A DNA stretch of 64,000 bases, taken from NCBI RefSeq assembly GCF_002127265.1, contig NZ_NFUU01000001.1:868001-932000 (forward strand). Direction: 5' to 3'. Numbering within the stretch: the stretch's first letter is position 1; every line of letters starts with the position of its first letter. This document shows, piece after piece, positions 1,917 through 53,800 of the stretch. The notes beneath the pieces are model-generated. The model worked only from the letters and a program-made list of their open reading frames with translations. It had not been told where the DNA came from and did no database searches. Source of the DNA: Hydrogenophaga sp. IBVHS1. GTDB lineage: Bacteria > Pseudomonadota > Gammaproteobacteria > Burkholderiales > Burkholderiaceae_C. Position numbers and translations under genes: made by a program.

Positions 1917-1927
1917 TGGTCCAACCA
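1917..1927. promoter_or_regulatory. Operator candidate TGGT-CCA-ACCA
   Basis: This is a perfect 4+4 inverted repeat with a 3-base centre, lying between the divergent oxidoreductase (start 1876) and KstD-like gene (start 1964). It matches the TGGT-N3-ACCA half-site arrangement known for FadR-subfamily GntR regulators and recurs throughout the window. Confidence 0.7.
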
Positions 1928-1963
1928 AACGCGACAGCCTTAAAACACCGAGGAAAAGACACC

Positions 1964-3673
1964 GTGAGCAGCCCGCCCTCCCTGAAGAAAGAAGTCGATC
2001 TCGTGGTCGTGGGCGCCGGTGCCGGCGGCATGACCGCTGCCGTCATGGGCACGCTGGCCGGCTTGGATGTGCTGCTGTGCGAAGGGACCGAGCAGGTGGG
2101 TGGCACCACGGCCACAGCGGCCGGCACGATCTGGGTTCCCAACAACAACCTGGTCAAGGCGGCGGGATTCGAGGACAGCATGGAAGAGGGCTTGCGCTAC
2201 CTCGATGGCCTGGTGCCATCGGGCGAATTGCGTCGCCTGCGCGAGGTCTACCTGGAGACCGGTCCGGCCATCATCGACGACATCGTGCGGCGCACGCAGG
2301 TGAAGTTCATGGCCGCTGGCAAGCACCCCGACTACGCGGACATTGCCGGCTCGCGCGTGGCGGGGCGCGCGCTCGCACCACTGCCGTTCGACGGCCGCCT
2401 GCTGGGCGAGGAGTTCCACCGCATCCGCCCACCGATGAAGGAGTTCATGGTGCTCGGCGGCATGATGGTCGGCAAGGCCGACATCGGCCATCTGCTGGGG
2501 CGATTCAAGTCGTGGGCCAGCTTCAAGCACAGCGCGGGCCTGGTGCTGCGCTATGCCGCCGATCGGCTGCGCCACGCGCGCGGCACGCGTCTGGTGATGG
2601 GCAACGCGCTGGTGGCGAGGCTCTTCGCCAGCCTGCGCGCGGCGGGCACGGCCATTGCGTTCGGCGCGCAGATCGAATCGCTGTCAAAGCACGGCAATCG
2701 CGTCTCGGGCGCTCGCTTCAAGCTGGCCACGGGCGAGCTTGTTGAAGTGAAAGCGCGCCTGGGTGTGGTGCTGGCCACCGGCGGCATCGGGCGCAACCCG
2801 GCGCTGCGCAAGCGATGGATGCGGCCGGGGCACGACCGCTGGCCTTCGCTGATTTTTGAAGGCAACCAGGGTGGCGGCGTGCGCGCGGCCGAACTCGCCG
2901 GGGCCGCGATCGACGGTACGCCGGGCGGCGCTGGTGTGTTGTGGCAACCGGTTTCGGTGACGCACGATGCAAAGGGTGGCACGGGCCTGTTCCCGCACCT
3001 CTTCCTCGACCGTGCCAAGCCTGGGTTGATCGCGGTGGACAGCGCGGGCCTGCGATTCACCAACGAAGGCGCGTCGTACCACTACTTCTGCGAAGACATG
3101 ATCAAGCGCCACGCCACCACGCCGGCCATTCCCGCCTGGTTGATCTGCGATGCCGCCTTTGTGGAGAAGTACGGCCTGGGGCTGATCCATCCAGGCACCA
3201 CCAACCTGAAGCCGCACGTGAAAACCGGCTACCTGCACGTGGGCGACAACCTGGACGCGCTGGCACGCAGTGCGGGTCTGGACGCGGTCGGCCTGAAGGA
3301 CAGCGTGGCGCGCAACAACGCCTACGCGCTCACCGGTGTGGACAGCGATTACGGCAAGGGCGCCACCGAGGTGAGCCGCTTCAACGGCGATCCCGATCAC
3401 CAGCCCAACCCTTGCCTGGGTCCCATTGCACAAGCGCCGTTTTGCGCCATGGCCCTGTGGCCAGCCGACGCTGCGGCCGACGCCGGCCTGTCGACCAACG
3501 AACATGGTCAGGTGCTCGACGCCGATGGCCAGCCCATCGCCGGCCTGTACGCCTGCGGCAACGACGCGGCCTCGCTCATGCGCGGCACCTACCCCGGACC
3601 GGGCGCCACCATCGGCCCGGCCATGGTCTTCGGCTACCGCGCCGCCATGCACGCCACTTCGCTCAAACATTGA
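1964..3673 (+). CDS. FAD-dependent 3-ketosteroid-delta1-dehydrogenase-like oxidoreductase (first copy)
   Basis: The product is 569 aa and belongs to the fumarate reductase/KstD flavoprotein family. The FAD dinucleotide motif GAGAGG is at about residues 17-22. The C-terminal YPGPGATIGPA segment (Tyr ~543, Gly ~547) corresponds to the Tyr/Gly pair of KstD that polarises the 3-keto group. Family members introduce a C=C bond next to a ring ketone, in steroids or in simpler cyclic ketones such as cyclohexanone. The GTG start at 1964 is chosen because a GAGGAAA ribosome site lies about 8 bases upstream; an in-frame ATG at 1916 would put the operator inside the gene. It leads an operon with the PRISE reductase, TIM-barrel protein and SDR. 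Confidence 0.85.
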   Translation: MSSPPSLKKEVDLVVVGAGAGGMTAAVMGTLAGLDVLLCEGTEQVGGTTATAAGTIWVPNNNLVKAAGFEDSMEEGLRYLDGLVPSGELRRLREVYLETGPAIIDDIVRRTQVKFMAAGKHPDYADIAGSRVAGRALAPLPFDGRLLGEEFHRIRPPMKEFMVLGGMMVGKADIGHLLGRFKSWASFKHSAGLVLRYAADRLRHARGTRLVMGNALVARLFASLRAAGTAIAFGAQIESLSKHGNRVSGARFKLATGELVEVKARLGVVLATGGIGRNPALRKRWMRPGHDRWPSLIFEGNQGGGVRAAELAGAAIDGTPGGAGVLWQPVSVTHDAKGGTGLFPHLFLDRAKPGLIAVDSAGLRFTNEGASYHYFCEDMIKRHATTPAIPAWLICDAAFVEKYGLGLIHPGTTNLKPHVKTGYLHVGDNLDALARSAGLDAVGLKDSVARNNAYALTGVDSDYGKGATEVSRFNGDPDHQPNPCLGPIAQAPFCAMALWPADAAADAGLSTNEHGQVLDADGQPIAGLYACGNDAASLMRGTYPGPGATIGPAMVFGYRAAMHATSLKH

Positions 3674-3688
3674 AACGGAAAAACATCC

Positions 3689-4750
3689 ATGTCATCTGCA
3701 TCTCCATCTGTGGCCCTTGTCGCGGGGGCCAGCGGCATCGTCGGTATCGGTGTGACCCAGCGTCTGGTGGCCGATGGCTGGCGCGTGCTGTGCGCCTCGC
3801 GCTCCGGCGGGGGCGACATCGAAGGCACCGAGGGCATTGCGCTGGACCTGATGGACCCACAGGCCTGCCGGCAGGCGTTGTCGAAGCATCCCGACATCAC
3901 GCACGTGTTCTTCACCGCCTACCAGCCCGCCGCCAGCCGCGCGGCCGAGGTGGCGCCCAACCTGGCCATGCTCCGCAACCTGGTGGAGGCCGTGAGCGCA
4001 ATGGCGCCCCAACTGGAGAAAGTGGTGCTGACCACCGGCGCGAAGTTCTACGGCATTCAGTGGGGCCAGACGAAGACGCCCTGCCGCGAGACCGACGCGC
4101 GCCAGTTGCCGCCCAACTTCTACTACGACCAGGAAGACTTCCTGCGCCAGGCACAGCAGGGCCAGCGCTGGTCCTGGGTCAACCTCATCCCGCCATTCGT
4201 TTCCGGCTTTGCTGTGGGCAACCCCATGAACCTGGTGATGGGCGTGGGCATCTACGCCGCCATCAGCAAGGAGATGGGCCTGCCGCTGCGCTTTCCCGGC
4301 AGCGCGGGCGCCTACGACGCGCTGCACCAGATCGCCGACGCGCACGTCATCGGCTCGGCCGCCAGCTGGGCGGCGCGCTCGGAGGCGGCGGCCAACCAGG
4401 CTTTCAACGTGAGCAACGGCGACCCGGCTCGTTGGCGCAATACCTGGCCGGTGATCGCCCAGGGCCTGGGCATGGAATGGGCCGAACCCAAGACCATGCC
4501 GCTGGTGGACGTGATGCCCGACCAGCAGGCGCTTTGGGACCGCATTTCTGAACGCCAGGGCCTGCGCAAGATCGACATCAACCGCATCGTCAACTGGGGC
4601 TGGGTCGACTACATGCTGCGCATGTCGCACGACGTGCTGCTGGAGACCGGCAAGATCCGCCGCGCCGGTTTTCACGACTGCATCGAGACCGACGCCATGT
4701 TCGTGCAGCGCCTGCGCGAGTTGCAGCAGCACAAGGTGCTTCCGTCATGA
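3689..4750 (+). CDS. PRISE-family enone reductase (progesterone 5-beta-reductase/iridoid synthase-like)
   Basis: The product is 353 aa and is an atypical short-chain dehydrogenase. The NADPH motif is GASGIVG (about 13-19). The catalytic Lys is in TTGAKFYG (Lys119), and the Tyr is in NFYYDQED (Tyr145/146) in place of the usual SDR YxxxK. The C-terminal block MNLVMGVG...GLPLRFPG is typical of plant progesterone 5-beta-reductases and their bacterial relatives. These reduce activated C=C bonds of enones such as delta4-3-ketosteroids, cyclohexenone and 8-oxogeranial. It lies 15 bases after the KstD-like gene, which catalyses the opposite type of change next to a ketone, so both probably act on cyclic enones or ketones. 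The true substrate is unknown. Confidence 0.85.
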   Translation: MSSASPSVALVAGASGIVGIGVTQRLVADGWRVLCASRSGGGDIEGTEGIALDLMDPQACRQALSKHPDITHVFFTAYQPAASRAAEVAPNLAMLRNLVEAVSAMAPQLEKVVLTTGAKFYGIQWGQTKTPCRETDARQLPPNFYYDQEDFLRQAQQGQRWSWVNLIPPFVSGFAVGNPMNLVMGVGIYAAISKEMGLPLRFPGSAGAYDALHQIADAHVIGSAASWAARSEAAANQAFNVSNGDPARWRNTWPVIAQGLGMEWAEPKTMPLVDVMPDQQALWDRISERQGLRKIDINRIVNWGWVDYMLRMSHDVLLETGKIRRAGFHDCIETDAMFVQRLRELQQHKVLPS

Positions 4751-5580
4751 ACGCCCGACACCGCCGCGTCAGCGACCTCACGCTGGGCTTCCTCACGCTC
4801 GGCGCACAGGCCGCGCCGCTGGACGTGATCGATGCTGCGGCCAGCGCGGGCTTCGGTGCGGCCGGCCCGCGCATCAGCGGGCGCTACCCCGGCGACGCGT
4901 GGCCCTCGGTCGACGACCGCGCCGATGCCTTCGACGAGATTCGCCGTGCCGCCGCCCAGCGCGGCGTGCGCCTCTCCAGCATCAGTGGCTACTACATCTC
5001 GCCGCAGGTGACGCTGGAGCACCTGCTGGCCAATGTGAACGCCGCAAAGGCTGTGGGTGCGCCCCTGATCCTGCAGGGCTGCTTCGACGCCAACATGGCG
5101 CGTGTGGCCAAGCTGGTGCGCGACTACGCGGCGGCGGCGCGAGAGGCCGGTGTGCGCATCGCGCTGGAGTTCATGCCCATGAGCGAGCTCAAGACCATCG
5201 CGCAAACCGTGGCGTTGATCGCGGCCAGCGGCGCAGGCAACGTCGGCATTCTGGTGGACGCGCTCCACCTTGCGCGTTCGGGCGCTACCCCTCGCGACGT
5301 GGCCGCGCTCGATCCCTCCATCGTGTACCTCACGCAGCTGTGCGATGCGCCCGCGCAGCTGGCCGAGGGCGACACGCTGTTCAACGAAGCCATGGCCGGA
5401 CGCCGTCTGCTCGGCGATGGCGGGCTCGACCTGGCCGGCCTGGTCAACGCCTTGCCGGGCGATGCGGAACTGGAACTGGAGACGCCGGCCGTGCAGCACG
5501 CCGACCTGGCCCCCACACTGCGCGCGCGCCACGCGGCTGAAGCGGCAGCGCAATTCTTCGCACGGCATTTCGCCCACTGA
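4747..5580 (+). CDS. Sugar phosphate isomerase/epimerase family TIM-barrel protein
   Basis: The product is 277 aa of the AP-endonuclease-2-like (xylose isomerase-like) TIM barrel. Visible signs are the metal-ligand-type strand ends ALEFMPMSEL, VGILVDALHLARSG and a C-terminal ELETP. The family includes hydroxypyruvate isomerases, inosose dehydratases and dehydroshikimate-type dehydratases, so isomerase or dehydratase activity is plausible but unproven. The start overlaps the previous stop as ATGA, indicating translational coupling with the PRISE gene. Confidence 0.75.
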   Translation: MNARHRRVSDLTLGFLTLGAQAAPLDVIDAAASAGFGAAGPRISGRYPGDAWPSVDDRADAFDEIRRAAAQRGVRLSSISGYYISPQVTLEHLLANVNAAKAVGAPLILQGCFDANMARVAKLVRDYAAAAREAGVRIALEFMPMSELKTIAQTVALIAASGAGNVGILVDALHLARSGATPRDVAALDPSIVYLTQLCDAPAQLAEGDTLFNEAMAGRRLLGDGGLDLAGLVNALPGDAELELETPAVQHADLAPTLRARHAAEAAAQFFARHFAH

Positions 5581-5615
5581 ATTTCACCCATCAACCTACG
5601 GAGACACGCAGCACC

Positions 5616-6395: not shown

Positions 6396-6399
6396 AGGT

Positions 6400-7680: not shown

Positions 7681-7690
7681 GGTGTGGGGC

Positions 7691-8274: not shown

Positions 8275-8285
8275 TGGTCAGACCA
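8275..8285. promoter_or_regulatory. Operator candidate TGGT-CAG-ACCA
   Basis: This perfect inverted repeat lies between dctQ (start 8227) and the divergent EthD-like gene (start 8301). It ends 15 bases before the plus-strand start codon. It belongs to the recurrent TGGT-N3-ACCA family of sites. Confidence 0.72.
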
Positions 8286-10074: not shown

Positions 10075-10098
10075 CCAATGGTTCAGCCAAACCATTGG
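10075..10098. promoter_or_regulatory. Operator candidate: CCAATGGT/ACCATTGG inverted repeat containing TGGT-TCA-GCCA
   Basis: Perfect 8-base arms (10075-10082 and 10091-10098) flank an 8-base centre. Inside lies TGGT-TCA-GCCA (10079-10089), one mismatch from the window-wide operator. It sits between the SDR stop (10101) and the dctP start, so dctP probably has its own regulated promoter. Confidence 0.6.
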
Positions 10099-10967: not shown

Positions 10968-11951
10968 TTATTCAGCCGTGATGCCGGCTGTCTGGATCAC
11001 CGGCTTCCAGCGTGCGATCTCGCTGGCGATGGTCTTGCGGAAGGTGGCCACGCTCTGGTCCGGTGCTGCTTCGGTGCTGAGTGTCTTCAGCGCATCCTTC
11101 ACGCGCTGCGTCTGCAGCACGGCGGTGATTTCCCGGTTCAGGCGATCGATGATGGGCTTGGGCGTGCCGGCGGGCGCGACCACGCCATACCAGGACTCCA
11201 GCATGAGCTCGGGCATGCCGAGTTCAGCGGTGGTGGGCACATCGGGCGCGATGGACACGCGCTTGGGACTCATGACCGCGAGCGCGCGCATCTTGCCGGC
11301 GGCCACGTGCGGCAGGGAGTCGGTGTTGCCGAACACCACATTGGTCTCATTGCCAAGCAGTCCCATGAAGGCCGGTGCGCCGCCTTTGTACGGCACGTTC
11401 ACGAGCTCACCCTTGGTGAGTTGCGAGAACAGGCCGGCGGTGAGGTGGAAAGTGCTGCCGTTGCCGGCGGTGCCGTAGCTGAGCTTGCCGGGGTTGGCCT
11501 TGGCGAAGGACACCAGATCGCCGAAGGTCTTGAACGGGCTCGATGCGTTCACCACGATGAGGTTCGGGCCGATGAAGGTCATGGCCACCGGCTCGAAGTC
11601 CTTGACCGAATCGTAGGGCAGGCTCTTGTAGAGGCTGGGCGCCAGAGAGAGCGGCGCAATGGTGCTGAGCGCGATGGTGTAGCCATCGGGCGGCGAAGTC
11701 TTGAGCACACCCATGCCCAGTGTGCCGCCAGCACCGGGGCGCACGTCCATTACCACCGGTTGGCCCAGGCGTTCCTGCAGGCCATCGGTGATCAGTCGCG
11801 CCAGGTTGGCGCCCAGCCCACCAGCGGCATACGGCCAGATGAGCTTGATGGGACGATCGGGGTATTCGGCGAAGGCCGGCAATTGCCAAGTGGCGACCAG
11901 GGCGACCATGGCACCCACAGCGGTGCGGCGCAACATCTTCAAGGTTTTCAT
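10968..11951 (-). CDS. TctC/Bug family tripartite tricarboxylate transporter substrate-binding protein
   Basis: The product is 327 aa. It has a signal peptide (MKTLKMLRRTAVGAMVALVATWQLPAFA) followed by the family opening YPDRPIKLIWPYAAGG. The central NPGKLSYGTAGNGSTFHL motif is diagnostic of Bug proteins. These periplasmic receptors bind carboxylates or aromatic acids. No TctA or TctB membrane genes are in the window, so it is an orphan receptor. The start at 11951 follows an AGGAGA site. Confidence 0.9.
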   Translation of the reverse strand: MKTLKMLRRTAVGAMVALVATWQLPAFAEYPDRPIKLIWPYAAGGLGANLARLITDGLQERLGQPVVMDVRPGAGGTLGMGVLKTSPPDGYTIALSTIAPLSLAPSLYKSLPYDSVKDFEPVAMTFIGPNLIVVNASSPFKTFGDLVSFAKANPGKLSYGTAGNGSTFHLTAGLFSQLTKGELVNVPYKGGAPAFMGLLGNETNVVFGNTDSLPHVAAGKMRALAVMSPKRVSIAPDVPTTAELGMPELMLESWYGVVAPAGTPKPIIDRLNREITAVLQTQRVKDALKTLSTEAAPDQSVATFRKTIASEIARWKPVIQTAGITAE

Positions 11952-11994
11952 TTCTTGTCTCCTGCAGAGGGGTTGTGAAAAAGGGAACTGCGTC

Positions 11995-13737
11995 TCAGAC
12001 GCTGGCCTTCTGAGGGCCGCGCACCAGGCGGCCTGGCGTGGCGCCGGTGGACTCACCATGGAGGTAGGTGATCTCGCCCGAGAGAATGGTGGCGGTGTAG
12101 CCGCGGGCTTTCTGCAGCAGGCGCTTGCCGCCCGCCGGCAGATCTTCCACGACGTAGGGCGTGTCGAGCGCGAGGCGGTCGAAGTCGATGATGTTGATGT
12201 CGGCCTTCATGCCGGGCTTGATGAAGCCGCGATCGTCCAGGCCCACCGTCTTCGCTGGATCGCTGGTGTAGCGGCGCACCAGCTCTTCCACCGATTGGCG
12301 GCCGCTGGCGCGGTCCCGGCCCCAGTGCGTGAGCAGGTAGGTGGGGAAACACGCGTCGGTGATGAAGCCCACATGTGCGCCACCGTCGCCCAGGCCAATC
12401 ATGGCGTTGGGGTGGGTGAGCATCTCGCGCGTGGGTTCGCACTCGAAATCGTGGTAGCCGGTGAAGGTGGCGTAGAGAAAGCCCTGGCCGCCGTCGTCGA
12501 GCAACATGTCGTAGGCCACTTCGGCGCCCGTGCGGCCTTCGCGCCGGGCGATGGAGGCAATGGAGCTTTCGCGCGGCGGCTCGTAGTTGGGCGGGTTGCC
12601 CAGCAGGAACATGTGCTCGTACATCTTCTCGAAACCCATGCGCTCGAACAGCGGGAAGGTGCTGTCCCTGTACGGGTCTTCGCTGAGAATGCGCTGGCGA
12701 ATCTCGGGGTCGCGCATGCGTGACACGCGCTCGGCCAGTGGCAGGTGCGCGATGCTGCGGTAGGTGGGCGTGGCGGCAAACGGGTTCTGCGTTCCGGTGA
12801 GACCGAACAGTGAACCGATGGGGCGCGGTGCCGTCACCGGGCGGATGCTGAGTCCATCGGCGGCGGCCTGGTCCGACAGCGCCAGCAGCTCACGCCACAC
12901 TTCCTTGCGCTCGCCGTGGCGCTGGTTGAGCGAGAACACGCAGGTGCGGCCCGACTTCTCCACCAGGCGTCGCATCATGCCGAATTCGCCGGCCGGGCTG
13001 GGCTGGTCCCAATCGGAGACGAACTCCAGCTGACCGTGTCCCGCATCGGCCAGGCCCATGGCGATGCCGGTGAGCTCGTCCTCTTGTGCGCGCAGCATGG
13101 GCGTTGGATCGCCCGATGCACTCTTGTGGCTGATGGTGCGCGAGGTGGTGAAGCCAAAAGCGCCGGCGCGCATGGCCTCGGCCGTAATCTTGCGCATCTC
13201 GGCGATGTCTTCCGGCGTGGCGTTCTCGAGTCGAAGCGCGCGCTCGCCCATCACGTACACGCGCAGCGGGCCGTGCGGCAGCTGGGCGCAGATGTCGGTG
13301 TCGCGGGTTTGCGAGTCCAGCACATCCAGGTACTCGCCGAAGCTCTCCCAGTTCCACTTCAGGCCTTCGACGAGGCAGGGGCCGGGGATGTCTTCCACGC
13401 CTTCCATGAGCTGGATCAGCGCGTCGCGGTCGGCCGGCCGCACCGGCGCAAAGCCCACGCCGCAGTTGCCCATCACCACCGTGGTCACACCGTGCCATGA
13501 ACCGGGTGTGAGGAACTGGTCCCAGATTGCCTGGCCGTCGTAGTGGGTGTGGATGTCGACGAAGCCGGGCGTGACCAGCTGGCCCCTGGCGTCCAGCTCT
13601 TTGCGGCCCTTGCCTTCGACCGTGCCCACCGCCGCGATCTTGCCGTCCTTCACCGCCACATCGGCCGCGAAGGCGGGAGAACCGGTGCCATCAATCACCT
13701 GGCCGTGGCGAATCACCAGGTCGTATTCATGAGTCAT
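11995..13737 (-). CDS. N-acyl-D-amino-acid deacylase-type amidohydrolase (first of tandem pair)
   Basis: The product is 580 aa of the amidohydrolase superfamily, D-aminoacylase-like. It shows the metal-binding HTH in [13 protein letters not shown] and the family Cys segment [11 protein letters not shown] downstream [10 protein letters not shown] contains the expected catalytic Asp. There is no signal peptide, so it is cytoplasmic. Known relatives hydrolyse N-acyl-D-amino acids, dihydropyrimidine-like rings or other amides. The start at 13737 gives the standard VIRHGQVIDGTG opening; the frame stays open farther upstream but only inside the neighbouring gene. Confidence 0.85.
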   Translation of the reverse strand: MTHEYDLVIRHGQVIDGTGSPAFAADVAVKDGKIAAVGTVEGKGRKELDARGQLVTPGFVDIHTHYDGQAIWDQFLTPGSWHGVTTVVMGNCGVGFAPVRPADRDALIQLMEGVEDIPGPCLVEGLKWNWESFGEYLDVLDSQTRDTDICAQLPHGPLRVYVMGERALRLENATPEDIAEMRKITAEAMRAGAFGFTTSRTISHKSASGDPTPMLRAQEDELTGIAMGLADAGHGQLEFVSDWDQPSPAGEFGMMRRLVEKSGRTCVFSLNQRHGERKEVWRELLALSDQAAADGLSIRPVTAPRPIGSLFGLTGTQNPFAATPTYRSIAHLPLAERVSRMRDPEIRQRILSEDPYRDSTFPLFERMGFEKMYEHMFLLGNPPNYEPPRESSIASIARREGRTGAEVAYDMLLDDGGQGFLYATFTGYHDFECEPTREMLTHPNAMIGLGDGGAHVGFITDACFPTYLLTHWGRDRASGRQSVEELVRRYTSDPAKTVGLDDRGFIKPGMKADINIIDFDRLALDTPYVVEDLPAGGKRLLQKARGYTATILSGEITYLHGESTGATPGRLVRGPQKASV

Positions 13738-15655: not shown

Positions 15656-15666
15656 TGGTAAGACCA
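15656..15666. promoter_or_regulatory. Operator candidate TGGT-AAG-ACCA next to a -10-like TAAAAT
   Basis: This is a perfect inverted repeat. Its first T is the last base of TAAAAT (15651-15656), a plausible -10 for the plus-strand SDR operon. A protein bound here would block transcription start. Confidence 0.7.
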
Positions 15667-18376: not shown

Positions 18377-18387
18377 TGGTCCGTCCA
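18377..18387. promoter_or_regulatory. Operator candidate TGGT-CCG-TCCA (one mismatch)
   Basis: The site lies between the divergent quinone oxidoreductase (18362) and EthD-like gene (18440). The outer arms AATGG/CCATT are symmetric, and only the innermost T of the right arm departs from the consensus. Confidence 0.55.
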
Positions 18388-22953: not shown

Positions 22954-23041
22954 GAAACACCGCGGAACCGGCTTTGCCGGGCCGCAGGTGTTGCCCCCTT
23001 GAGGGGGTGACGCGCCGCAAGGCGCGGCGCGGGGGTGGGTC
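22954..23041. repeat. Intergenic structured repeat, copy 1
   Basis: A block of about 85 bases is shared with 42261-42341. It contains an outer stem AACACCGCGG/CCGC-A-GGTGTT, an inner hairpin CCGGC-TTT-GCCGG, then CCCCC-TTGA-GGGGG and a GC-rich tail. It fills the space between the convergent cupin and TctC genes and could end transcription in either direction. Confidence 0.8.
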
Positions 23042-24005
23042 AATCCATGCTGATGTTGTTCTCTTTCACGACCTTGCCCCACAGGGCATGGTCCTTCTTC
23101 AGGATGTCGCCCAGCGGCTGCGTCCCGCTCTGAGGCACCACGTTCACGCTCCGGATCTTCTCCTGCACGTCCGGCATGGCCACCACTTGCGCTACCGCAT
23201 CGGCCACGCGCGTGATGATGGATGGCGGTGTGCCGGTGCGTGCCACCAGACCGAACCAGGTCTCGGTGTCGTAGCCGGGCACCACCTCGCTGATGCTGGG
23301 TACATCCGGCAGCAGCGGGCTGCGTTTCGCGGTGGACACGCCGAGCACGCGCATCTTGCCCTCGGCCACGAAGCCGCGCGTGGCAGAAGACGGCGTGGAC
23401 AGCATGTATTTGGTCTGGCCAGCCAGCAGCGCCTGCGCCGCCGGGCCTGCACCGGGGTAGGGCACCATCACCATGCTCTTGATGCCGGCCGCGCTGTGGA
23501 ACGCTTCCATGGCCAGCTGGCCCACGCCGCCCAACGCGGCGGCACCCCACTCGAGCTTGCCCGGGTTGGCGCGCGCGTAGTCGACGAAATCCTTGAGCGT
23601 GCCCGGTGTTGATGGGTGCGTCATGAGCACCATGGGCGAAGTGCCGATCAGTGAGACCGGCACGAAGTCCTTCATGGCGTCGTACAGGGGTTTTCGCTGC
23701 ACCAGCGGCACGGTCACCAGACCACTGCCATGCAGCAGGAAGGTGTAGCCATCGGCTGGCTGCGTGGCCACGTACTGCGAGGCGATGGCGCCACCCGCGC
23801 CGGCCTTGTATTCCATGATCACAGGCTGGCCCAGCAGCTTGGACAAAGGCTCTTGCAGATGGCGGCCAAGCACGTCGTTGGTGCCGCCGGCGGCCGCCGG
23901 TACGATGAACCGGATGGGTTTGCTGGGCCAGGCGTCCTGCGCCAGCGCGGTGGTGCCCAGCAGGGCGAGCGTGAGGGAAGCGAGGAGGGTGCGGCGAGGC
24001 AGCAT
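23040..24005 (-). CDS. TctC/Bug family substrate-binding protein
   Basis: The product is 321 aa. A signal peptide (MLPRRTLLASLTLALLGTTALA) precedes AWPSKPIRFIVPAAAGG. The family motif ARANPGKLEWGAAALGG is present. It is a periplasmic receptor for an organic acid, without nearby TctAB. It is divergent from the SDR pair at 24170; the intergenic region has only degenerate copies of the operator. Confidence 0.9.
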   Translation of the reverse strand: MLPRRTLLASLTLALLGTTALAQDAWPSKPIRFIVPAAAGGTNDVLGRHLQEPLSKLLGQPVIMEYKAGAGGAIASQYVATQPADGYTFLLHGSGLVTVPLVQRKPLYDAMKDFVPVSLIGTSPMVLMTHPSTPGTLKDFVDYARANPGKLEWGAAALGGVGQLAMEAFHSAAGIKSMVMVPYPGAGPAAQALLAGQTKYMLSTPSSATRGFVAEGKMRVLGVSTAKRSPLLPDVPSISEVVPGYDTETWFGLVARTGTPPSIITRVADAVAQVVAMPDVQEKIRSVNVVPQSGTQPLGDILKKDHALWGKVVKENNISMD

Positions 24006-24035
24006 GGGGTTGTCTCCGGTAAGTTGAACATGCGC

Positions 24036-24066
24036 ATTGGTCCAAATGGCTATAGGACAGACCAAT
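24036..24066. promoter_or_regulatory. Degenerate operator region (ATTGGT ... ACCAAT)
   Basis: ATTGGT (24036-24041) and ACCAAT (24061-24066) are inverted but 19 bases apart. Each has a weak partner: TTGGTCCAA on the left and AGGA-CAG-ACCA on the right. It lies in the divergent TctC/SDR promoter region, so it may be two half-occupied sites. Confidence 0.4.
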
Positions 24067-24169
24067 AGAATCTGGGATGCATAATAGCCCGAGTGGGCAG
24101 GGCGCGAGTGAGTAATACCCCTCACCGGCCCGGCATGCAACGCATCGAAAAGCCTTTCAGGAGACCCCC

Positions 24170-25757: not shown

Positions 25758-26501
25758 TCACTTGACCTTGGTGGCCTTGTGGACGACCTTCAGGTACTCG
25801 TTCAGGTGTTCGATCGCCTCGCTTGAGTTCCGCGCGCGCAGGCAGGCGAGGATCTTGCGGCGCAAGGGCACCAGCTGCGGCCGATGCCCGGCGGGTGTTT
25901 TTTCCAGCACCACATAGCGAAGTATCTGCAACAGCGAGTCGATGAGGATCACCATCACTTCGTTGTGCGTTGCCTTTGCAATCAGGTGAAAAAACAGCAC
26001 GGCTTCATCCGTGCGCGCGGCCCAGTCCTTCTCTCTGGCCAGCGCTTCCATGCGGTCCAGGTTGGCTTCGATGGCGGCAAAGTCTGTCGCCGTGCCGTGT
26101 TCGCATGCGCTCTGCAGGATGACGCTGTGAATCATCCGCCGGGCGTCGATCAGATTGGGTATTGAAATCCTGCCCAGGGCGATGAGATCCTGAAGCGGTC
26201 GCGCCAGCATGTCCGCATTGCCATTGCGGATGTAGGCGCCTCCCTTGGTGCCGAGTTTCAGTTCAAGAATGCCGGCCATTTCCAGGGTGCGCAACGCCTC
26301 CCGGATGACGGGCCGGCTCACGCCGAAGCCGGTGGCGAGGTCTTGCTCTGAAGGCAGGCGATCCCCGGCCTTCAGTTCCCCAGAGTGAAGCATCGCCCTG
26401 ATCTGGTCGCCCACTTCCTCGAAACCACGCCGGGTCTTGACGCTGGTGAACTGGGCACTGGTGCGCGGCTGTGTCGGCGCACTCGTCGCGTCCTTTTTCA
26501 T
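25758..26501 (-). CDS. GntR-family transcriptional regulator, FadR (FCD) subfamily, first
   Basis: The product is 247 aa. The N-terminal winged helix-turn-helix reads AGDRLPSEQDLATGFGVSRPVIREALRTLEMAG across adjacent motifs, with recognition-helix arginines. The C-terminal FCD ligand domain has the helical pattern with a His in FFHLIAKATHNEV that usually binds metal. FadR-subfamily proteins bind TGGT-N3-ACCA-like palindromes and release DNA on binding an acid or acyl-CoA. It is divergent from the ALDH-GMC operon, with two operator-like sites between, implying autoregulation. The second regulator at 52880-53722 shares the ELKLG-GGA wing. Confidence 0.9.
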   Translation of the reverse strand: MKKDATSAPTQPRTSAQFTSVKTRRGFEEVGDQIRAMLHSGELKAGDRLPSEQDLATGFGVSRPVIREALRTLEMAGILELKLGTKGGAYIRNGNADMLARPLQDLIALGRISIPNLIDARRMIHSVILQSACEHGTATDFAAIEANLDRMEALAREKDWAARTDEAVLFFHLIAKATHNEVMVILIDSLLQILRYVVLEKTPAGHRPQLVPLRRKILACLRARNSSEAIEHLNEYLKVVHKATKVK

Positions 26502-26595: not shown

Positions 26596-26642
26596 TACAA
26601 TGCAAATGGACAAACCATTTATATAGTTCACTGGTTTGTCAA
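26596..26642. promoter_or_regulatory. Promoter and two operator candidates before ALDH gene
   Basis: TACAAT (26596-26601) could be a -10. TGGA-CAA-ACCA lies at 26607-26617, inside arms AAATGG/CCATTT. A second copy lies inverted at 26632-26642, as TGGT-TTG-TCAA (reverse TTGACAAACCA). The pair lies between the FadR-type regulator and ALDH. Confidence 0.6.
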
Positions 26643-32667: not shown

Positions 32668-32678
32668 TGGTCAGTCCA
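32668..32678. promoter_or_regulatory. Operator candidate TGGT-CAG-TCCA (one mismatch)
   Basis: Upstream of dctP (start 32598). On the minus strand it falls between a possible -35 TTGATC and an AT-rich -10 region. The rest of 32679-32803 shows no gene and no other clear signal. Confidence 0.55.
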
Positions 32679-35017: not shown

Positions 35018-35048
35018 TAATATTGGTCCAATACATGGTCAAGCCAAT
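35018..35048. promoter_or_regulatory. Hydrolase promoter with operator candidates ATTGGTCCAAT and TGGT-CAA-GCCA
   Basis: A -10-like TAATAT (35018-35023) overlaps the palindrome ATTGG-T-CCAAT (35022-35032). TGGT-CAA-GCCA follows at 35036-35046 with one mismatch. A possible -35 lies in the MarR-like palindrome, giving a 19-base spacer. Confidence 0.6.
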
Positions 35049-37019: not shown

Positions 37020-37035
37020 TATAATGGTATGACCA
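37020..37035. promoter_or_regulatory. -10 element TATAAT abutting operator TGGT-ATG-ACCA
   Basis: TATAAT is at 37020-37025 and the perfect palindrome at 37025-37035, extended to AATGGT/ACCATT. It lies before the small-protein gene that opens the acyl-CoA operon. No strong -35 is evident, which could mean activator dependence. Confidence 0.7.
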
Positions 37036-42345: not shown

Positions 42346-43350
42346 TCAGGTCGGGGTGATGTTGAGGCGTTTGATCAGGTCGCCCCAGAGCTTGCTGTCG
42401 CGCTGCACGATCTTGGCAAACTCATCGCCACCCACTTGCGATGGCGTGCCGCCACCCTTGCGAACGATGGCCTGGAATTCCGGGTCGGACGTCATGGCCT
42501 GCACCGCCTGCATCAGCTTGGCCTGAACGGCGGGCGGCAGGTTGGCCGGTGCCACCATGCCGAACAGCTGTTCGGGAAGCAGCACGTTGTAGCCCGCTTC
42601 CTTGATCGAAGGCACATTGGGCAGCGATGCATCGCGCGTGTCGCCGGTAACGGCCAGCGCCTTGATGCGCCCACTGTTGATGAGGGCGATCGAGCTGGGC
42701 ACCGACTGCCACGCGTAGTGCACGTCGCCGGCCATGATGGCGGCGTCGGTCTCGGGGCCGGTCTTGTAGGGAATGTGCACGGCCTGAATGCCCACGTCGG
42801 CGTTGAACTGCTCGGCCGCAAGGTGGATACTGTTGCCGATGCCTGAAGAACCGAAGTTGAGCTTGCCGGGCTTGGACTTGGCTAGCGCGATGAACTCGCT
42901 CACGGTGTTCACGCCCAGCGCGGGCGCCACCACCAGCACTTGCCGTGTGGTCTGGATCAGGCCGAGGTAGGTGAACGACTTCACCACGTCGTAACCCGTG
43001 TTCTTGATCAGGTGCGGGGCCGACGTCATGGCGGTGCTGGTGCCCATGCCGATGGTGTAGCCATCGGGTGCCGCGCGCGCCACGGCAGAAAGGCCGATGG
43101 TGCCCGAGCCGCCCAGCTTCACGTCAACGATCATGCTGCCGTTCATGGTCTTTGCCATGTGCAGCGCGATCTGACGCGCCAGGAAATCGACCGCACCACC
43201 GAAGGGTGCAATCAGCGTGATGGGACGCTCCGGGTAGCCCGATTGCGCGAATGCCAGCGAGGGCAGCGCGCCGATGCTGGCAGCGCCACCGGCCAGGGCA
43301 GCCAGGCGCAGCGTGGCGGTGCGGCGGGAAATGGAGTGGGAATCTTTCAT
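42346..43350 (-). CDS. TctC/Bug family substrate-binding protein
   Basis: The product is 334 aa. Its leader has a twin-arginine-like pair (SRRTATLRLAAL) before AFAQ, then YPERPITLIAPFGG. The family motif KPGKLNFGSSGIGNSIHL is present. It is a periplasmic receptor for an organic acid, lacking TctAB partners here. It lies 44 bases downstream of a FAH-family gene. Confidence 0.9.
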   Translation of the reverse strand: MKDSHSISRRTATLRLAALAGGAASIGALPSLAFAQSGYPERPITLIAPFGGAVDFLARQIALHMAKTMNGSMIVDVKLGGSGTIGLSAVARAAPDGYTIGMGTSTAMTSAPHLIKNTGYDVVKSFTYLGLIQTTRQVLVVAPALGVNTVSEFIALAKSKPGKLNFGSSGIGNSIHLAAEQFNADVGIQAVHIPYKTGPETDAAIMAGDVHYAWQSVPSSIALINSGRIKALAVTGDTRDASLPNVPSIKEAGYNVLLPEQLFGMVAPANLPPAVQAKLMQAVQAMTSDPEFQAIVRKGGGTPSQVGGDEFAKIVQRDSKLWGDLIKRLNITPT

Positions 43351-44320: not shown

Positions 44321-45292
44321 TCAATCAAGTCGGATGCGTGTACCGGAGATGAATTTCTTCCAGCGGGCGGTATCACTTCGTACGATCTGGTCGATGTACT
44401 TCGCGCTGGTGTCGGTGGCGGGGTCCACGCCGATGTTGCGCATGCGCTCGCGCACCGCAGGCGAAGCCACCATCCTGGCCACCTCCGCATTGAGCCGGTC
44501 GATCACATCGGGTGGCGTGCCTGCCGGAGCGGCCAGGCTGTACCAGGTGTCGATGTAGAAACCCTTGAGGCCCACTTCTTCCATGGTCGGCAGCTCCGGC
44601 GCAGCGCCCAGGCGGGTCTTGCCCGTGACGGCGAGTGCCCGCAACCGGCCTGCCTTCACATGCGTGAGCACCGAGGTGTCGACGAACATGAAGTCGAGCT
44701 GACCACCGAGCAGGTCGCTGATGGCGGGGCCTGCACCGCGGTACGGCACGTGCACCACCGGGACGCCCGATAGCTGCCGGAACATTTCGCCCGAGAGGTG
44801 CGGGGTGGAGCCATTGCCAGCCGAGCCGTAGAACACCTTGCCGGGTCGCGCGCGGGCGTATTCAATGAGCTCCTTCACCGATTTCACCGGGCTGCTGGCG
44901 TTGACCACCAGCACGTTCGACGACGTGAACACCATCGAGACGGGCGAGTAGTCCTTCAAAGGGTCAAACGGCAGGCTGGCGTACAGGCTGGGGTTGATGG
45001 TCATGGTGCTGTTCACCGCCATCAGCAGCGTGTAGCCATCGGCGGGCGCCTTGGCCACAAAGCCCGCGCCGAGCGCGCCGTTGGCGCCGGGTTTGTATTC
45101 GACCACCACACGCTGGCCCAGGCTCGGGCTGATGGCCTCGCTCACCATGTTGCCGAACGTGGTGCCCATGCCGCCGGGCGGGTAGGGAACCACCAGCACC
45201 ACGGGTTTCTCGGGATATGCAGCCCACGCGGGCATGAGGGCGCTGGTGGCCAGCGCGAGGCCGGTGAGCAGTTGGCGCAAGTAAGAAGGCAC
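44321..45292 (-). CDS. TctC/Bug family substrate-binding protein
   Basis: The product is 323 aa. The GTG start at 45292 has CAGGAGA nine bases upstream and gives a sensible signal peptide (SYLRQLLTGLALATSALMPAWA) before YPEKPVVLVVPYPPGG. The motif RARPGKVFYGSAGNGSTPHL is characteristic. It lies 17 bases upstream of the FAH gene, so the two are probably co-transcribed. Confidence 0.88.
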   Translation of the reverse strand: MPSYLRQLLTGLALATSALMPAWAAYPEKPVVLVVPYPPGGMGTTFGNMVSEAISPSLGQRVVVEYKPGANGALGAGFVAKAPADGYTLLMAVNSTMTINPSLYASLPFDPLKDYSPVSMVFTSSNVLVVNASSPVKSVKELIEYARARPGKVFYGSAGNGSTPHLSGEMFRQLSGVPVVHVPYRGAGPAISDLLGGQLDFMFVDTSVLTHVKAGRLRALAVTGKTRLGAAPELPTMEEVGLKGFYIDTWYSLAAPAGTPPDVIDRLNAEVARMVASPAVRERMRNIGVDPATDTSAKYIDQIVRSDTARWKKFISGTRIRLD

Positions 45293-45344
45293 GGAAAAGT
45301 CTCCTGTGGGGTGTGTTGTCAAAAACGGTCGGGCGCGCGGTGCG

Positions 45345-45921: not shown

Positions 45922-45961
45922 TTGACCGAGCGTTGAACTTGACAGTATAATGGTCTTACCA
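45922..45961 (+). promoter_or_regulatory. Promoter TTGACC-18-TATAAT with operator TGGT-CTT-ACCA
   Basis: The -35 TTGACC is at 45922-45927 and the -10 TATAAT at 45946-45951. The perfect palindrome begins at the last T of the -10 (45951-45961). The position over the start site strongly suggests repression of the CoA-transferase operon. Confidence 0.75.
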
Positions 45962-47885: not shown

Positions 47886-48881
47886 TCACTGCGGCTGAAT
47901 GCCCTTGGCCTTGATCAGGGCCTGAAAGCGCGCTGCTTCCTTGTCGACCAGCGCGCGGAACTCGGCGGGCGTGGTGCTTTGTGGTTCGTTGCCGGTGGCC
48001 GAGAGCGCCTCGCGCAACGGCGCCTGGGCCAGCACCGTCTTCATGGCATCGGCCAGCTTGTTCACCACCGGCGTCGGGGTGCCGGGTGGCGCGACCAGGC
48101 CGAAGAACACGTCGGTGGTCATGGCGGGCAGGCCCAGTTCGGCCATGGTGGGCGTGTCGGGCAGGGACTTGTCGCGGCGCGAGCCGGTGACGGCCAGTGC
48201 GTTGAGCTTGCCGGTGCGGGCCAGTGCCAGGTTGGACGAGAGCGCGTCGAAGTAGAACTGGATCTGGCCGCCCATGGTGGCACTCGCCGATTCGGCGCCG
48301 CCCTTGTAGGGAATGTGCACGGCATCGAATCCGGCTTCGGTCTTGAGCAGTTCGGACAGCAGGTGCAGGCTGCCGTTCACGCCGTTGGAGCCGAAGCTGA
48401 GCTTGCCGGGGTTGGCCTTGCCGTAGGCGATGAGTTGCTTCAGGTCCTTGAATTCCGGCGACGCCATGATCACGAACATGGAGGTGGTGGCCAGGCTCAC
48501 CGGGATCAGAGTTCTCACGTCGTAGCCCGGCTCCTTGTAGAGGAAGGGCGAGATCGCCATGACGCTGTTGCCCACCCACACCAGGGTGTGGCCGTCGGCC
48601 GGTGCCCGCACGGTCTGCTGCACGGAGATGGTGCCCGAGGCGCCAGGCCGGTTTTCGATCACGACGGGCTGGCCCAGCAGCTTGGCCAGCTCGGTGCCCA
48701 CCAGGCGGGCCGTGATGTCGGTGGAGCCACCGGCGCCGGCGCCCACCAGGATGCGGATCGGCTTGCTGGGGAACGTTTCCTGCGCGCGCGCCGGCAGGGT
48801 CAGGCCCAGGGCAGCGGCGCCGAGGCCAGCGGCCAGCACCAGGCGGCGGCTGGGTTGGGTGTGGGGATCTTGTGCGTTCAT
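47886..48881 (-). CDS. TctC/Bug family substrate-binding protein
   Basis: The product is 331 aa. The leader contains SRRLVLAAGLGAAALG, a Tat-like twin arginine, before FPSKPIRILVGAGAGG. The motif KANPGKLSFGSNGVNGSLHL confirms the family. It is a periplasmic receptor and stands alone, convergent with DUF2889 and divergent from the nitroreductase operon. Confidence 0.9.
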   Translation of the reverse strand: MNAQDPHTQPSRRLVLAAGLGAAALGLTLPARAQETFPSKPIRILVGAGAGGSTDITARLVGTELAKLLGQPVVIENRPGASGTISVQQTVRAPADGHTLVWVGNSVMAISPFLYKEPGYDVRTLIPVSLATTSMFVIMASPEFKDLKQLIAYGKANPGKLSFGSNGVNGSLHLLSELLKTEAGFDAVHIPYKGGAESASATMGGQIQFYFDALSSNLALARTGKLNALAVTGSRRDKSLPDTPTMAELGLPAMTTDVFFGLVAPPGTPTPVVNKLADAMKTVLAQAPLREALSATGNEPQSTTPAEFRALVDKEAARFQALIKAKGIQPQ

Positions 48882-48921
48882 GGGGGTCTCCGTTTGTGCG
48901 AAAGGCGCGCGTTGGACTGGA

Positions 48922-48960
48922 TTGACATCGATTGGCTGGCGCATTATATTGGTCTAACCA
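48922..48960 (+). promoter_or_regulatory. Promoter TTGACA-17-TATATT with operator TGGT-CTA-ACCA
   Basis: The -35 TTGACA is at 48922-48927 and the -10 TATATT at 48945-48950, with a 17-base spacer, a near-consensus sigma70 promoter. The perfect palindrome (48950-48960) starts on the last base of the -10, the same geometry as at 45951. Confidence 0.8.
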
Positions 48961-48987
48961 TTAAACATCAAGACAGCAATTTCCCTT

Positions 48988-50873: not shown

Positions 50874-51295
50874 GCGATCTGCCGCACGGCGATGTGGCCG
50901 AGCCGTTCTGGGCCGGTCTTCGTGAGCGCCGCCTCATGCTGCAGTTCGATGCCACCAGCGGGCGCGCCCAGTTCTACCCCCGGCCGCAGAGCCTCTACAG
51001 CGAGGCCGGTGTGCAGTGGCGTGAGGCCAGCGGGCGCGGCACCATCGTCGCGCTCACCAAAAGCCGCGTCTCACCGCCCGCGCTGGCTCACCGGGTGCCG
51101 TATGCACTGGCGCTGGTGAAGCTGGCGGAAGGCCCACGCATGCTGGCGCGCGTTCTCGCACCACACGCCGATCTGGCTTTGGGCCAACCGGTTCACATCA
51201 CCTGGGAAGAGGACGGCCATGCGCTGGCCTTTCCCGCATTCCAGCCGAGCGGCCGCGCCGCCGATTCACCTCAAGACCAAGGAGACTCCCCATGA
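50870..51295 (+). CDS. DUF35/OB-fold partner of thiolase, without zinc-ribbon cysteines
   Basis: The product is 141 aa. PFWAGLRERRLMLQFDATSGRAQFYPRP fits the helix and rubredoxin-like start of DUF35 proteins, followed by an OB-fold (GTIVALTKSRV...). Normal members have four zinc-binding Cys; this protein contains no Cys at all. It overlaps the thiolase-like gene by four bases (ATGA). DUF35 partners act as scaffolds or acyl-CoA channels, which would not strictly need zinc. Confidence 0.78.
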   Translation: MSDLPHGDVAEPFWAGLRERRLMLQFDATSGRAQFYPRPQSLYSEAGVQWREASGRGTIVALTKSRVSPPALAHRVPYALALVKLAEGPRMLARVLAPHADLALGQPVHITWEEDGHALAFPAFQPSGRAADSPQDQGDSP

Positions 51296-52272
51296 TTTCC
51301 CGCCGCCACCTGCTGGGCGCTTCCGCCCTGTCTGCCCTGCCCGCACTGCACCCGGGCCACGCCTGGGCACAAGCCGGGTTTCCCAACAAGCCCATCCACC
51401 TGATCGTGCCGTTCGCCGCCGGTGGCACGGGTGACGTGCTCTGCCGCAACCTGCAGGAGCCGCTGCAGCGCATCCTCGGCCAGTCGATCGTGGTGGAAAA
51501 CCGCCTGGGCGCGGGTGGCACGGTGGGCACGCAACACGTGAAGAACGCCGCGCCCGATGGCTACACGCTGCTTCAGGTGGGCAATTCCACGGTGACCACG
51601 GCACTCATGCGCAAGAACGCCGGCTACGACCCCATCAAGGACTTCGCCTCCGTGGGTCTGGTGGCCACCACGCCCATGGTGCTGCTCACCAACCCGGTCA
51701 TTCCCGCCAACAACGTGGCCGAACTCATTGCCTACGCCAAGGCGCGCCCGCGCGGCCTGGAATACGCCTCGGCCGGGCGAGGCTCGCTCGGCCACCTCAC
51801 CAACGAACTGTTCAACCAGATGGCGGGCCTGGAGATGGTCTACGTGCCCTATCAGGGTTCGTCGCAGGCCACCAACGCGGCGCTGACCGGCGAAGTCAAG
51901 ATGGTGATCACTACGCCGTCGGACGCCATCAATGGCCTGGTGGCCAGCGGCCGCCTGAAGATGCTCGGTGTCTCGTCGCCGCAGCGCAGCCCGTTGCTGC
52001 CCAGCGTGCCTGCCATCGCCGAAACCTTGCCCGGTTTCGATGTGCTGGCCTGGTTCGGCCTGGCGGCCCCGGCCGGCACGCCACCCGATGTGCTCGCGCG
52101 GCTGAACGACGCCGTGAACAAGGCGGTGAGCGAACCCGCCATGCAGACCAAGCTTGCCGGGCTGGGCATGACGCCCAAGCCGGCACCAGCGAAGAACTTC
52201 GCCGACACCTGGGCCGCCGATCAGAAGATCTGGACCCGCGTGATGCAGCAGGCCAACCTGCAACCGGAATGA
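51292..52272 (+). CDS. TctC/Bug family substrate-binding protein
   Basis: The product is 326 aa. A Tat-like leader (MISRRHLLGASALSALPAL) precedes FPNKPIHLIVPFAAGG. It overlaps the DUF35 gene by four bases and has AAGGAGA eight bases before its start. It is the only TctC of the six embedded within a plus-strand enzyme operon, suggesting that its ligand is the operon's substrate. Confidence 0.9.
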   Translation: MISRRHLLGASALSALPALHPGHAWAQAGFPNKPIHLIVPFAAGGTGDVLCRNLQEPLQRILGQSIVVENRLGAGGTVGTQHVKNAAPDGYTLLQVGNSTVTTALMRKNAGYDPIKDFASVGLVATTPMVLLTNPVIPANNVAELIAYAKARPRGLEYASAGRGSLGHLTNELFNQMAGLEMVYVPYQGSSQATNAALTGEVKMVITTPSDAINGLVASGRLKMLGVSSPQRSPLLPSVPAIAETLPGFDVLAWFGLAAPAGTPPDVLARLNDAVNKAVSEPAMQTKLAGLGMTPKPAPAKNFADTWAADQKIWTRVMQQANLQPE

Positions 52273-52282
52273 ACGCGAGCAC

Positions 52283-52852
52283 ATGAATAACGACTACTCG
52301 CCCGAGCGCATTGCCGACCGCATGCAGATTCAGGACTGCATGTACCGCTGGTGCCGCAGCGTGGACCGGCTCGACTTCGACTTGATGACGACCGTGTTCC
52401 ACCCCGATGCAAACGATGCGCACGGCGCGTACGACGGTGGCGTGGATGGCCTGATGGACTGGATCCGCAACCGCCACCGCAACATTCCTTTCTCCATGCA
52501 CGCGGTCAGCAACCTGCTGATCGAGTTTGCCGGGCCAGACCTGGCTCTGGTGGAAAGCTACGTGCGCACCACCCAGCGCTACCCCGCCGAAGCCGCACAG
52601 GCGCTGGCGCAGCTCGCGGGTGGCAAGGCGCCCGAGGGGGCCATGGACCTGCTGACGTGTTCGCGCTACGTGGACCGCTTCGAGCGGCGACAAGGCGAAT
52701 GGAAAATTCTGAAACGCACGCTGGTGGCCGACTGGAAGCAGGTGGTGCCGGTGCCCGCCAACGCACCGCAGCCGGTGCCGGGCTGGGAGTCGGGCCAGCG
52801 CACGCAGGAGGATTTCATCTTCCGCGAGCGCAAGGCCGTCGGCCTGGCCTGA
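52283..52852 (+). CDS. NTF2-like (SnoaL-type) protein
   Basis: The product is 189 aa. IADRMQIQDCMYRWCRSVDRLDFDLMTTVFHPDA is the standard N-terminal NTF2-like helix-strand region, and the rest follows the cone fold, ending in DFIFRERKAVGLA. Activity is unknown; a dehydratase or isomerase is possible. It lies ten bases after TctC and closes the operon, convergent with the second FadR-type regulator. Confidence 0.78.
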   Translation: MNNDYSPERIADRMQIQDCMYRWCRSVDRLDFDLMTTVFHPDANDAHGAYDGGVDGLMDWIRNRHRNIPFSMHAVSNLLIEFAGPDLALVESYVRTTQRYPAEAAQALAQLAGGKAPEGAMDLLTCSRYVDRFERRQGEWKILKRTLVADWKQVVPVPANAPQPVPGWESGQRTQEDFIFRERKAVGLA

Positions 52853-52879
52853 TCGCGCAGCTCTTGCGCGACGACCCGT

Positions 52880-53722
52880 TCAGGTGGCGCGGGGAGCGCG
52901 GGTGCGCGTCTTGCTCGGTGTGGCGCTGCGAGTCGGGCGACGCGCGGGTTCGGCCGCATTCCTGGCCGAGGCCTGTTTGCCCGGTGGCAGCCCGCGCGCC
53001 CGGACCATGTAGCCCTCGTGCAGCTTGATCAGGGCAGAGGTCATCTCTTTCACGGCCTTCTCGGCGTCGCGCTTGCGCAGATGCGTCAGCAGCCGTTTGC
53101 GCGAGGGCAGGGTGTAGGTCTGGTCTTCGGTGGGCCCGATGGCCTTCACGAACTGGCGCAGGATTTCCACGATGCCTTCGGTGGTGGCCAGCAGGATGGG
53201 GTTGTGCGTGGCCTTGGCCAGCAGCACGTGAAAGGCCTGGTGGTATTTGGTGCGCTCCTCGAAGCTTCCCGAGTTGTGCATTTCTTCGGCCATGGCCACG
53301 TTGCGCTCAAGCTCCGCCAGGTCTTCATCGGTCATGTTCTCGCAGGCCATGCGGATCACTGCCGAGCTCACCGAGATCCGCGCGGCGGTGAGGTGATCGG
53401 GCGTGATCGCACCGAGGAAATACAGGTCGCGCATGCCATTGACCACGGCGTTTGAACTGCCCGGCAGCACAAAGGCGCCACCCGCCGACCCCAGCTTGAG
53501 CTCGATCAGGCCACTCAACTCCAGCGCCCTCAGCGCCTCGCGCATGGTGTTGCGGCTGACGCCGAACATCTGCGCCAGGTCGCGCTCGGGGGGCAGCTTG
53601 TCGCCGGGGCGCAACTTGCCTTCCGAGATGTTGCGCCGCAACTGGCTGGCCACCTCCTGGTAGATGCGCTGCGGGCTGATCGGCTGGATGCCGAAGCTGG
53701 AGGAGGGGGGCGAGGTTTTCAT
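52880..53722 (-). CDS. GntR-family transcriptional regulator, FadR (FCD) subfamily, second
   Basis: The product is 280 aa. The winged helix-turn-helix includes RPGDKLPPERDLAQMFGVSRNTMREALRALE over consecutive elements, and the FCD domain has KYHQAFHVLLAKATHNPI with metal-type His residues. A basic tail of about 40 residues (PARRPTRSATPSKTRTR) is unusual. It is divergent from the Liv-type transporter operon, with an operator-like site in between. It and the 25758 regulator are the natural candidates to bind the window's TGGT-N3-ACCA sites. Confidence 0.9.
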   Translation of the reverse strand: MKTSPPSSSFGIQPISPQRIYQEVASQLRRNISEGKLRPGDKLPPERDLAQMFGVSRNTMREALRALELSGLIELKLGSAGGAFVLPGSSNAVVNGMRDLYFLGAITPDHLTAARISVSSAVIRMACENMTDEDLAELERNVAMAEEMHNSGSFEERTKYHQAFHVLLAKATHNPILLATTEGIVEILRQFVKAIGPTEDQTYTLPSRKRLLTHLRKRDAEKAVKEMTSALIKLHEGYMVRARGLPPGKQASARNAAEPARRPTRSATPSKTRTRAPRAT

Positions 53723-53770
53723 GATGGCAATCGTAGTGGCAAAGGATGGTTGATGGACAGGGATTCCATA

Positions 53771-53800
53771 TTGCATCAATGGTTGGTCCAATGATATATT
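53771..53800 (+). promoter_or_regulatory. Promoter with operator TGGT-TGG-TCCA between -35 and -10
   Basis: A possible -35 TTGCAT (53771-53776) and -10 TATATT (53795-53800) are 18 bases apart. The operator-like palindrome (53780-53790, one mismatch) lies between them. Transcription would start near 53807, almost at the livH ATG, hinting at a leaderless message. Confidence 0.5.

Follow-up and report, generated by a model that had tools for sequence, protein, structure and literature searches.

Along the 64,000 nucleotides of Hydrogenophaga sp. IBVHS1 analysed here (the window, C1:868001-932000), palindromes of the form TGGT-N3-ACCA precede one catabolic gene after another, which raises the question of whether so large a block is controlled as a unit, and by which regulator or regulators. 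A sequence-only reading of the window had proposed that most of this island is one regulon of FadR-subfamily GntR proteins. Below, coordinates above 64000 or below 1 continue the window numbering into the adjoining DNA, of which three 20-kb stretches were used (L005, C1:848001-868000; L006, C1:932001-952000; L007, C1:952-972 kb).

A pattern scan recovered all six perfect palindromes listed in that reading (starting at 1917, 8275, 15656, 37025, 45951 and 48950), as well as all six sites with one mismatch (10079, 18377, 26607, 32668, 35036 and 53780). Its two weaker sites are also present: the one at 26632 reads TGGTTTGTCAA, and the best alignment of the degenerate copy placed at 24036-24066 is AGGACAGACCA, starting at 24054 (Table 1). 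Around the latter (24035-24068), half-sites ATTGGTC and GACCAAT lie widely separated, possibly as a spread or decayed pair. The gene map contains ten divergent regions and all ten have a site, as had been claimed, that at 24054 being degenerate, while the operators at 10079, 32668 and 37025 head same-strand genes outside these ten regions. The further claim that all sites are intergenic holds provided that start codons are downstream of six of them (1917, 8275, 24054, 26607, 45951 and 53780), which lie within the longest ORF that can be drawn for an adjacent gene; such starts are an assumption, though a likely one.

Table 1. Putative operators, regulators and promoters of the window (positions in window numbering).
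Feature	Position	Strand	Context	Details
Operator, C/T hybrid	1917..1927		between Gfo/Idh oxidoreductase (-) and KstD-like flavoprotein (+)	perfect; 18.9 bits
Operator, C/C	8275..8285		between DctQ (-) and hypothetical gene from 8301 (+)	perfect; 24.6 bits
Operator, T/T	10079..10089		upstream of DctP (-)	one mismatch; 18.3 bits
Operator, A/C	15656..15666		between Amidohydro_3 (-) and SDR (+)	perfect; 27.4 bits
Operator, C/C	18377..18387		between ADH (-) and EthD-led operon (+)	26.6 bits
Operator, degenerate	24054..24064		between TctC (-) and SDR (+)	16.2 bits
Operator, C/T hybrid	26607..26617		between GntR/FCD g1 (-) and ALDH (+)	24.9 bits
Weak second operator-like site	26632..26642		beside 26607	13.9 bits
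Operator, C/C	32668..32678		upstream of DctPQM operon (-)	28.3 bits
Operator, C/T hybrid	35036..35046		between FMO/Baeyer-Villiger-like monooxygenase (-) and alpha/beta hydrolase (+)	18.8 bits
Operator, A/C	37025..37035		heads CaiB-type CoA-transferase operon (+)	29.4 bits
Operator, C/A	45951..45961		between SnoaL-led operon (-) and CaiB (+)	27.7 bits
Operator, C/T hybrid	48950..48960		between TctC (-) and nitroreductase/thiolase operon (+)	29.8 bits
Operator, T/C hybrid	53780..53790		between GntR/FCD g2 (-) and Liv ABC transporter operon (+)	23.3 bits
g1, FadR-subfamily GntR/FCD regulator	25758..26501	-		Pfam GntR + FCD; helix VSRPVIREAL
g2, FadR-subfamily GntR/FCD regulator	52880..53722	-		Pfam GntR + FCD; helix VSRNTMREAL
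Promoter at 37025	TATAAT 37020-37025		fused to operator; -35 poor (TTCTCC)	12.2 bits
Promoter at 45951	TTGACC 45922-45927, TATAAT 45946-45951			16.0 bits
Promoter at 48950	TTGACA 48922-48927, TATATT 48945-48950			17.8 bits

The core is in excess in the window, with 33 sites of at most one mismatch versus a mean of 17.9 in shuffled sequences (sd 3.75; none of 100 shuffles reached 33). As a discriminator, this one-mismatch pattern alone was rejected, 21 of the 33 matches lying beyond the 12 named sites and scoring at most 11.2 bits; the 12 themselves reach 18.3-29.8 bits with a matrix trained on them. Genome-wide, perfect sites number 51 in 4.43 Mb, i.e., 0.74 per 64 kb, versus six in the window. 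The A/T-flanked pattern WTGGTNNNACCAW occurs 15 times in the genome, six times in the window and twice in the next 20 kb, while its reversed control occurs nowhere in the genome.

The scoring matrix (21 bases) was built from the 12 named sites, for which leave-one-out scores range from 15.0 to 27.9 bits, the next-best window scores being 16.2 (24054), 14.1 and 13.9 bits. Because the matrix was trained on the window, enrichment was tested outside of it. The 40 kb of held-out flanks contain six sites of at least 18 bits (five in L006 and one in L005), against none in twenty 20-kb control stretches of the same genome (394.5 kb without masked bases), so that the equal density in unrelated regions which the sequence-only reading had named as counter-evidence was not observed. 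The best of the controls is one site of 16.7 bits, three reaching at least 12 bits, and random sequences modelled on the window yield 0.1 sites of 18 bits on average (maximum 2; 30 sequences). A genome scan, also proposed in that reading, was carried out with a profile model, which lists 11 places, ten of them in the island (eight training sites and two held-out ones) and the eleventh at C1:2734308; 150 of 436 first-look candidates were scored, the E-values are weak (0.9-3.2) and four of the 12 training sites are absent from the listed places. Since sites of at least 18 bits occur in both L005 and L006 and are lacking in L007 and in the controls, the island overruns both window ends and extends over about C1:867-951 kb (~85,000 bases), with 19 operators in 84 kb (24054 counted, 26632 left out). 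Two strong operators of about 21 bits lie far away, at C1:1545327 (L008:1328, flanked by LivK-like and TctC genes) and at C1:2734310 (L013:1511, flanked by a SnoaL_4 gene and one for an Lhr-type helicase); the gene kinds being partly those of the island, they are possibly distant members of the regulon.

Among 60 window ORFs searched with Pfam, transport is represented by two TRAP transporters, six TctC receptors and a branched-chain ABC transporter, and metabolism by CaiB CoA-transferases, a thiolase with an OB-fold partner, KstD-like flavoproteins, amidohydrolases, SDRs, AKRs, EthD and SnoaL proteins and an FMO/Baeyer-Villiger-like monooxygenase. For the substrate or the pathway, family searches of the island proteins give broad classes only and a literature search returned nothing specific. 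The TctC-type receptor genes are at 10968-12059, 23040-24005, 42346-43350, 44321-45322, 47886-48944 and 51292-52272, with a seventh in L006, and the proteins scanned with Pfam include no TctA/TctB membrane partner. When genes are grouped into operator-headed runs, defined by map position rather than by transcripts (same strand, gaps below 600 bases, operator at most 650 bases from the first gene), 57 of the 59 mapped window genes are included; DctQ1 and DctM1 stay outside because the longest DctQ1 ORF overlaps the operator at 8275. No operator lies close enough to the CaiB4 run under the limit used. This layout suggests that the whole block would be switched together, and to that extent the proposal that most of the island is one regulon stands. 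Its stronger form, one regulon of one regulator, is not established, because two kinds of recognition helix occur among the regulators, each with its own half-site preference.

Of the 60 scanned ORFs, only g1 and g2 are convincing regulators; they combine an N-terminal GntR winged helix (PF00392; 1.5e-18 and 4.8e-22, respectively) with a C-terminal FCD domain (PF07729; 2.7e-14 and 3.5e-18). The earlier count of two such regulators is thus correct for the window and too low for the island, which has four, g3 and g4 lying just beyond; out of 19 FCD proteins in the genome, five (g1, g2, g3, g4 and g5) belong to the island. The recognition helix begins with SRP in g1 and g3 and with SRN in g2 and g4. 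An AT-flanked TKGT-n3-ACMA palindrome precedes the g1 and g2 genes and the putative targets; upstream of g4, the best site scores 10.8 bits and is no good operator. Orthology of g1 or g2 to PdhR, LldR, NanR or FadR was rejected, both being below the NCBIfam cut-offs (at least 189 bits for these four); NanR is the best match of each (91 and 111 of 260 bits), and no cut-off is reached among the best 25 families. The fifth protein, g5 (L006:18978-19961, i.e., C1:950978-951961, outside the window), joins a flavin reductase (PF01613) to an FCD effector domain resembling that of g1/g3, with no HTH found by Pfam in its own sequence. Eight full-length sequences align, own included (Pfam on the own one only), and the g5 gene and a thiolase gene have a common double operator. 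By analogy with AbHpaC, in which the C-terminal domain is reported to be of the MarR type (PMC10816480), a ligand may gate the reductase activity of g5; our literature search found no publication on a flavin reductase-FCD fusion.

Orthologous promoters carry the operators too, both in a genome of the same genus and in Burkholderiales. The former (G044) has a syntenic block with g2-g5 at 84-89% identity (g3 91%) and, within 60 kb, seven sites that reach 18 bits or more, and parts of the block are found in Xenophilus, a MAG and Variovorax, single proteins reaching up to 88%. At 50% identity or above, a site is present for 26 of 50 homologues of operator-proximal genes versus 7 of 55 homologues of other island genes (Fisher p 2e-5) and, regulators set aside, for 16 of 36 versus 5 of 47; these counts drop hits with less than 50% coverage, hits that begin beyond query residue 60 and genes whose start is less than 150 bases from a locus end, and they enter LivHMGF as operator-free on account of a late start coordinate, which biases against the claim. 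In five hand-picked promoter pairs between the own genome and G044, the 15-base core is 93-100% identical and the flanks 60-78%. At single promoters, 14 of 15 core bases of the operator at 53780 are retained in G044, where the EthD homologue also has a site (18.5 bits; compare 18377), the ALDH homologues in L110 and L112 carry one (compare 26607), and the Thiol2/Cyclase promoter keeps a C/T operator with the same 11 bases in G044 and L095 and with one base different, still C/T, in L096.

Among the best 80 loci of the regulator search, a site of at least 18 bits accompanies 23 of the nearest 26 regulators (0/26 in shuffled copies, one shuffle each), and 22 of the remaining 54 loci carry a site (8/54 when shuffled). 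Some homologues are without: on a Variovorax plasmid, 40.7 kb that encode a g3 homologue (73%) and contain several mobile elements are free of sites of at least 12 bits, other loci (e.g., L034, L042, L051, L052 and L102) have none, and retention is low for CaiB3 (2/9), Thiol3 (2/6) and KstD1 (0/2). Own genome included, g3 homologues at E 1e-30 or better are found in 9 of 399 genomes drawn from the order, and g4 homologues in 4 of 369 drawn from the class, a patchy distribution that fits a transferable island.

Loci with an SRN-type regulator alone favour TGGTT half-sites, while those with an SRP/SRS type alone favour TGGTC. At half-site position 5, loci with SRN (or GRN) regulators alone have T in 21 of 34 half-sites and those with SRP/SRS regulators alone in 0 of 30 (p 2e-8), the counts for C being 5 of 34 and 21 of 30; half-sites from related genomes are non-independent, so that p-values are rough. 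For these counts, the matrix centre was masked, sites of at least 15 bits within 3.5 kb of the regulator were used, and the same core with the same type was counted once. The test leaves out those tabulated loci that combine helix types or have another one (NP, NS, NT, G), L025, L027, L041 and L052 were omitted, and L055-L059 (own and G044 loci) are not in the list. Later loci are in line for SRNT regulators (L180, L181 and L183 with T/T, L181 also with one T/C; L182 with A/T) and SRNV regulators (L203, L205 and L207 with T/T), alongside a P-type locus with A/A (L204) and an SRT-type one with C/C (L208). Off the code are the GRNA-type loci L176-L178 (A/A or G/A sites); L194-L196 have weak, off-pattern sites only, and the SRN/GRN loci L185, L186, L189, L202 and L206 have no site in the stretch scanned. 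Suvorova et al. report, in their own residue numbering, that a helix Asn prefers A/T at central positions (PMC4494728). 

Four operators have a -10 element ending exactly at their first T (37025, 45951, 48950 and 75706), the last three with a good -35, an overlap that fits simple repression by polymerase block. Of 31 cases, 11 have their best -10 between offsets -8 and -2, whereas shuffling gives 5.3 on average and 11 at most (200 shuffles); at other promoters, where prediction is weak, the best -10 is up to 22 bases off. The idea that every operator has a fused -10 was dropped, as there are four clear cases, one of them with a poor -35, and the control overlaps. From the observed motif, enrichment, conservation and link to a regulator clade, we infer binding, the assignment of regulators to sites, repression as the sign and a ligand. 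Very probably, then, the sites serve as operators for a few related FadR-subfamily GntR/FCD regulators whose genes belong to the island itself (g1-g4), acting by a releasable block. Every operator lies within a short promoter region, and a few lie right on the -10 element; a regulator dimer bound there would keep RNA polymerase from one promoter or, where two promoters diverge, from both. The signal for release would be a small acid or acyl-CoA that arises as a pathway intermediate and is bound by the FCD domains, carboxylic acids being named as effectors of the FadR subfamily (PMC4494728), and the transporters, CoA-transferases, oxidoreductases and thiolases of the island would be induced as a set. 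Autoregulation would apply to g1, g2 and g3 at least.

The 19 island operators (24054 included, 26632 excluded) comprise 5 C/C, 6 C/A, 6 C/T, 1 T/T and 1 A/A, a mix that would follow either from predominance of somewhat tolerant SRP-type regulators or from joint action of the two types at shared sites. Tentatively, SRN-type (g2, g4) and SRP-type (g1, g3) subunits might each read one half-site, as heterodimers or by dual read-out, and C/T hybrids would then integrate two ligands. This possibility draws on the six hybrids among the 19 operators, on the absence of T half-sites beside the SRP/SRS type alone, on the side-by-side encoding of SRN and SRP/SRS types in L060, L061, L105 and L211, on the C/T operator kept at the Thiol2/Cyclase promoter in G044, L095 and L096 and on heterodimers reported for the related ExuR/UxuR pair (PMC9369180). 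Yet the island mix is close to random pairing (an excess of hybrids is unsupported, with 4.6 expected by arithmetic and 6 seen), lone SRN regulators can have neighbouring C/T sites as well (L047 and L063, both of genome G066), loci with SRN and SRS types are mostly T (9 T, 3 C and 2 A of 14 half-sites), and SRP-type regulators may tolerate T. Just as tentatively, all operators might be under one master type, g1/g3 being the most likely, with g2 and g4 minor or serving other signals; 17 of the 19 operators have at least one C, the SRP-type letter, but that at 10079 is T/T, and g2 seems to be kept, with 75% identity in Xenophilus and 88-91% in G044. An unlikely, more elaborate version joins four interlocking paralogues, a code of SRN for TGGTT and SRP for TGGTC, heterodimers on hybrids, a pathway answering two ligands and a g5 FCD domain sensing the same ligand to gate the enzyme. 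Finally, it is highly improbable that the sites merely reflect the nucleoid or promoters in general, for although the motif is AT-flanked and promoter-located, the control DNA, which must hold promoters too, lacks 18-bit sites, the core is better conserved than the flanks, and the central letters track the recognition helix of the neighbouring regulator.

Should the preferred reading of regulator-family operators be true, a single scan would set the borders and the membership of a catabolic island common to the genus and Burkholderiales, a code from recognition-helix residue to operator letter would sort paralogous GntR regulators and their targets by sequence alone, and heterodimeric operator reading would become directly testable in this family. 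The motif class itself is already known: the claim that FadR-subfamily proteins bind such DNA agrees with the reported consensus TKGT/ACMA, mostly with three bases between (PMC4494728). New are the scale (19 operators, 84 kb and four co-resident paralogues) and the two-letter half-site code, and no publication on this island was found in our literature search. Like FadR, PdhR, LldR, GlcC and DgoR, the island regulators combine a GntR winged helix with FCD, an AT-rich TKGT/ACMA palindrome and sites in divergent regions (PMC4494728), where, according to the same source, one site usually serves both operons. Unlike in FadR-subfamily systems, for which 1740 operators and 634 regulators amount to ~2.7 operators per regulator if the first column of the table is taken as FadR (PMC4494728), four paralogues reside together here with 19 operators in one cluster. 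A further close parallel, E. coli ExuR/UxuR, also consists of paralogous FadR-subfamily regulators, which share targets and are reported to form heterodimers (PMC9369180); the island differs from it in having recognition helices of two kinds, each with its matching half-site letter, and in a larger local target set, and its heterodimers are only proposed.
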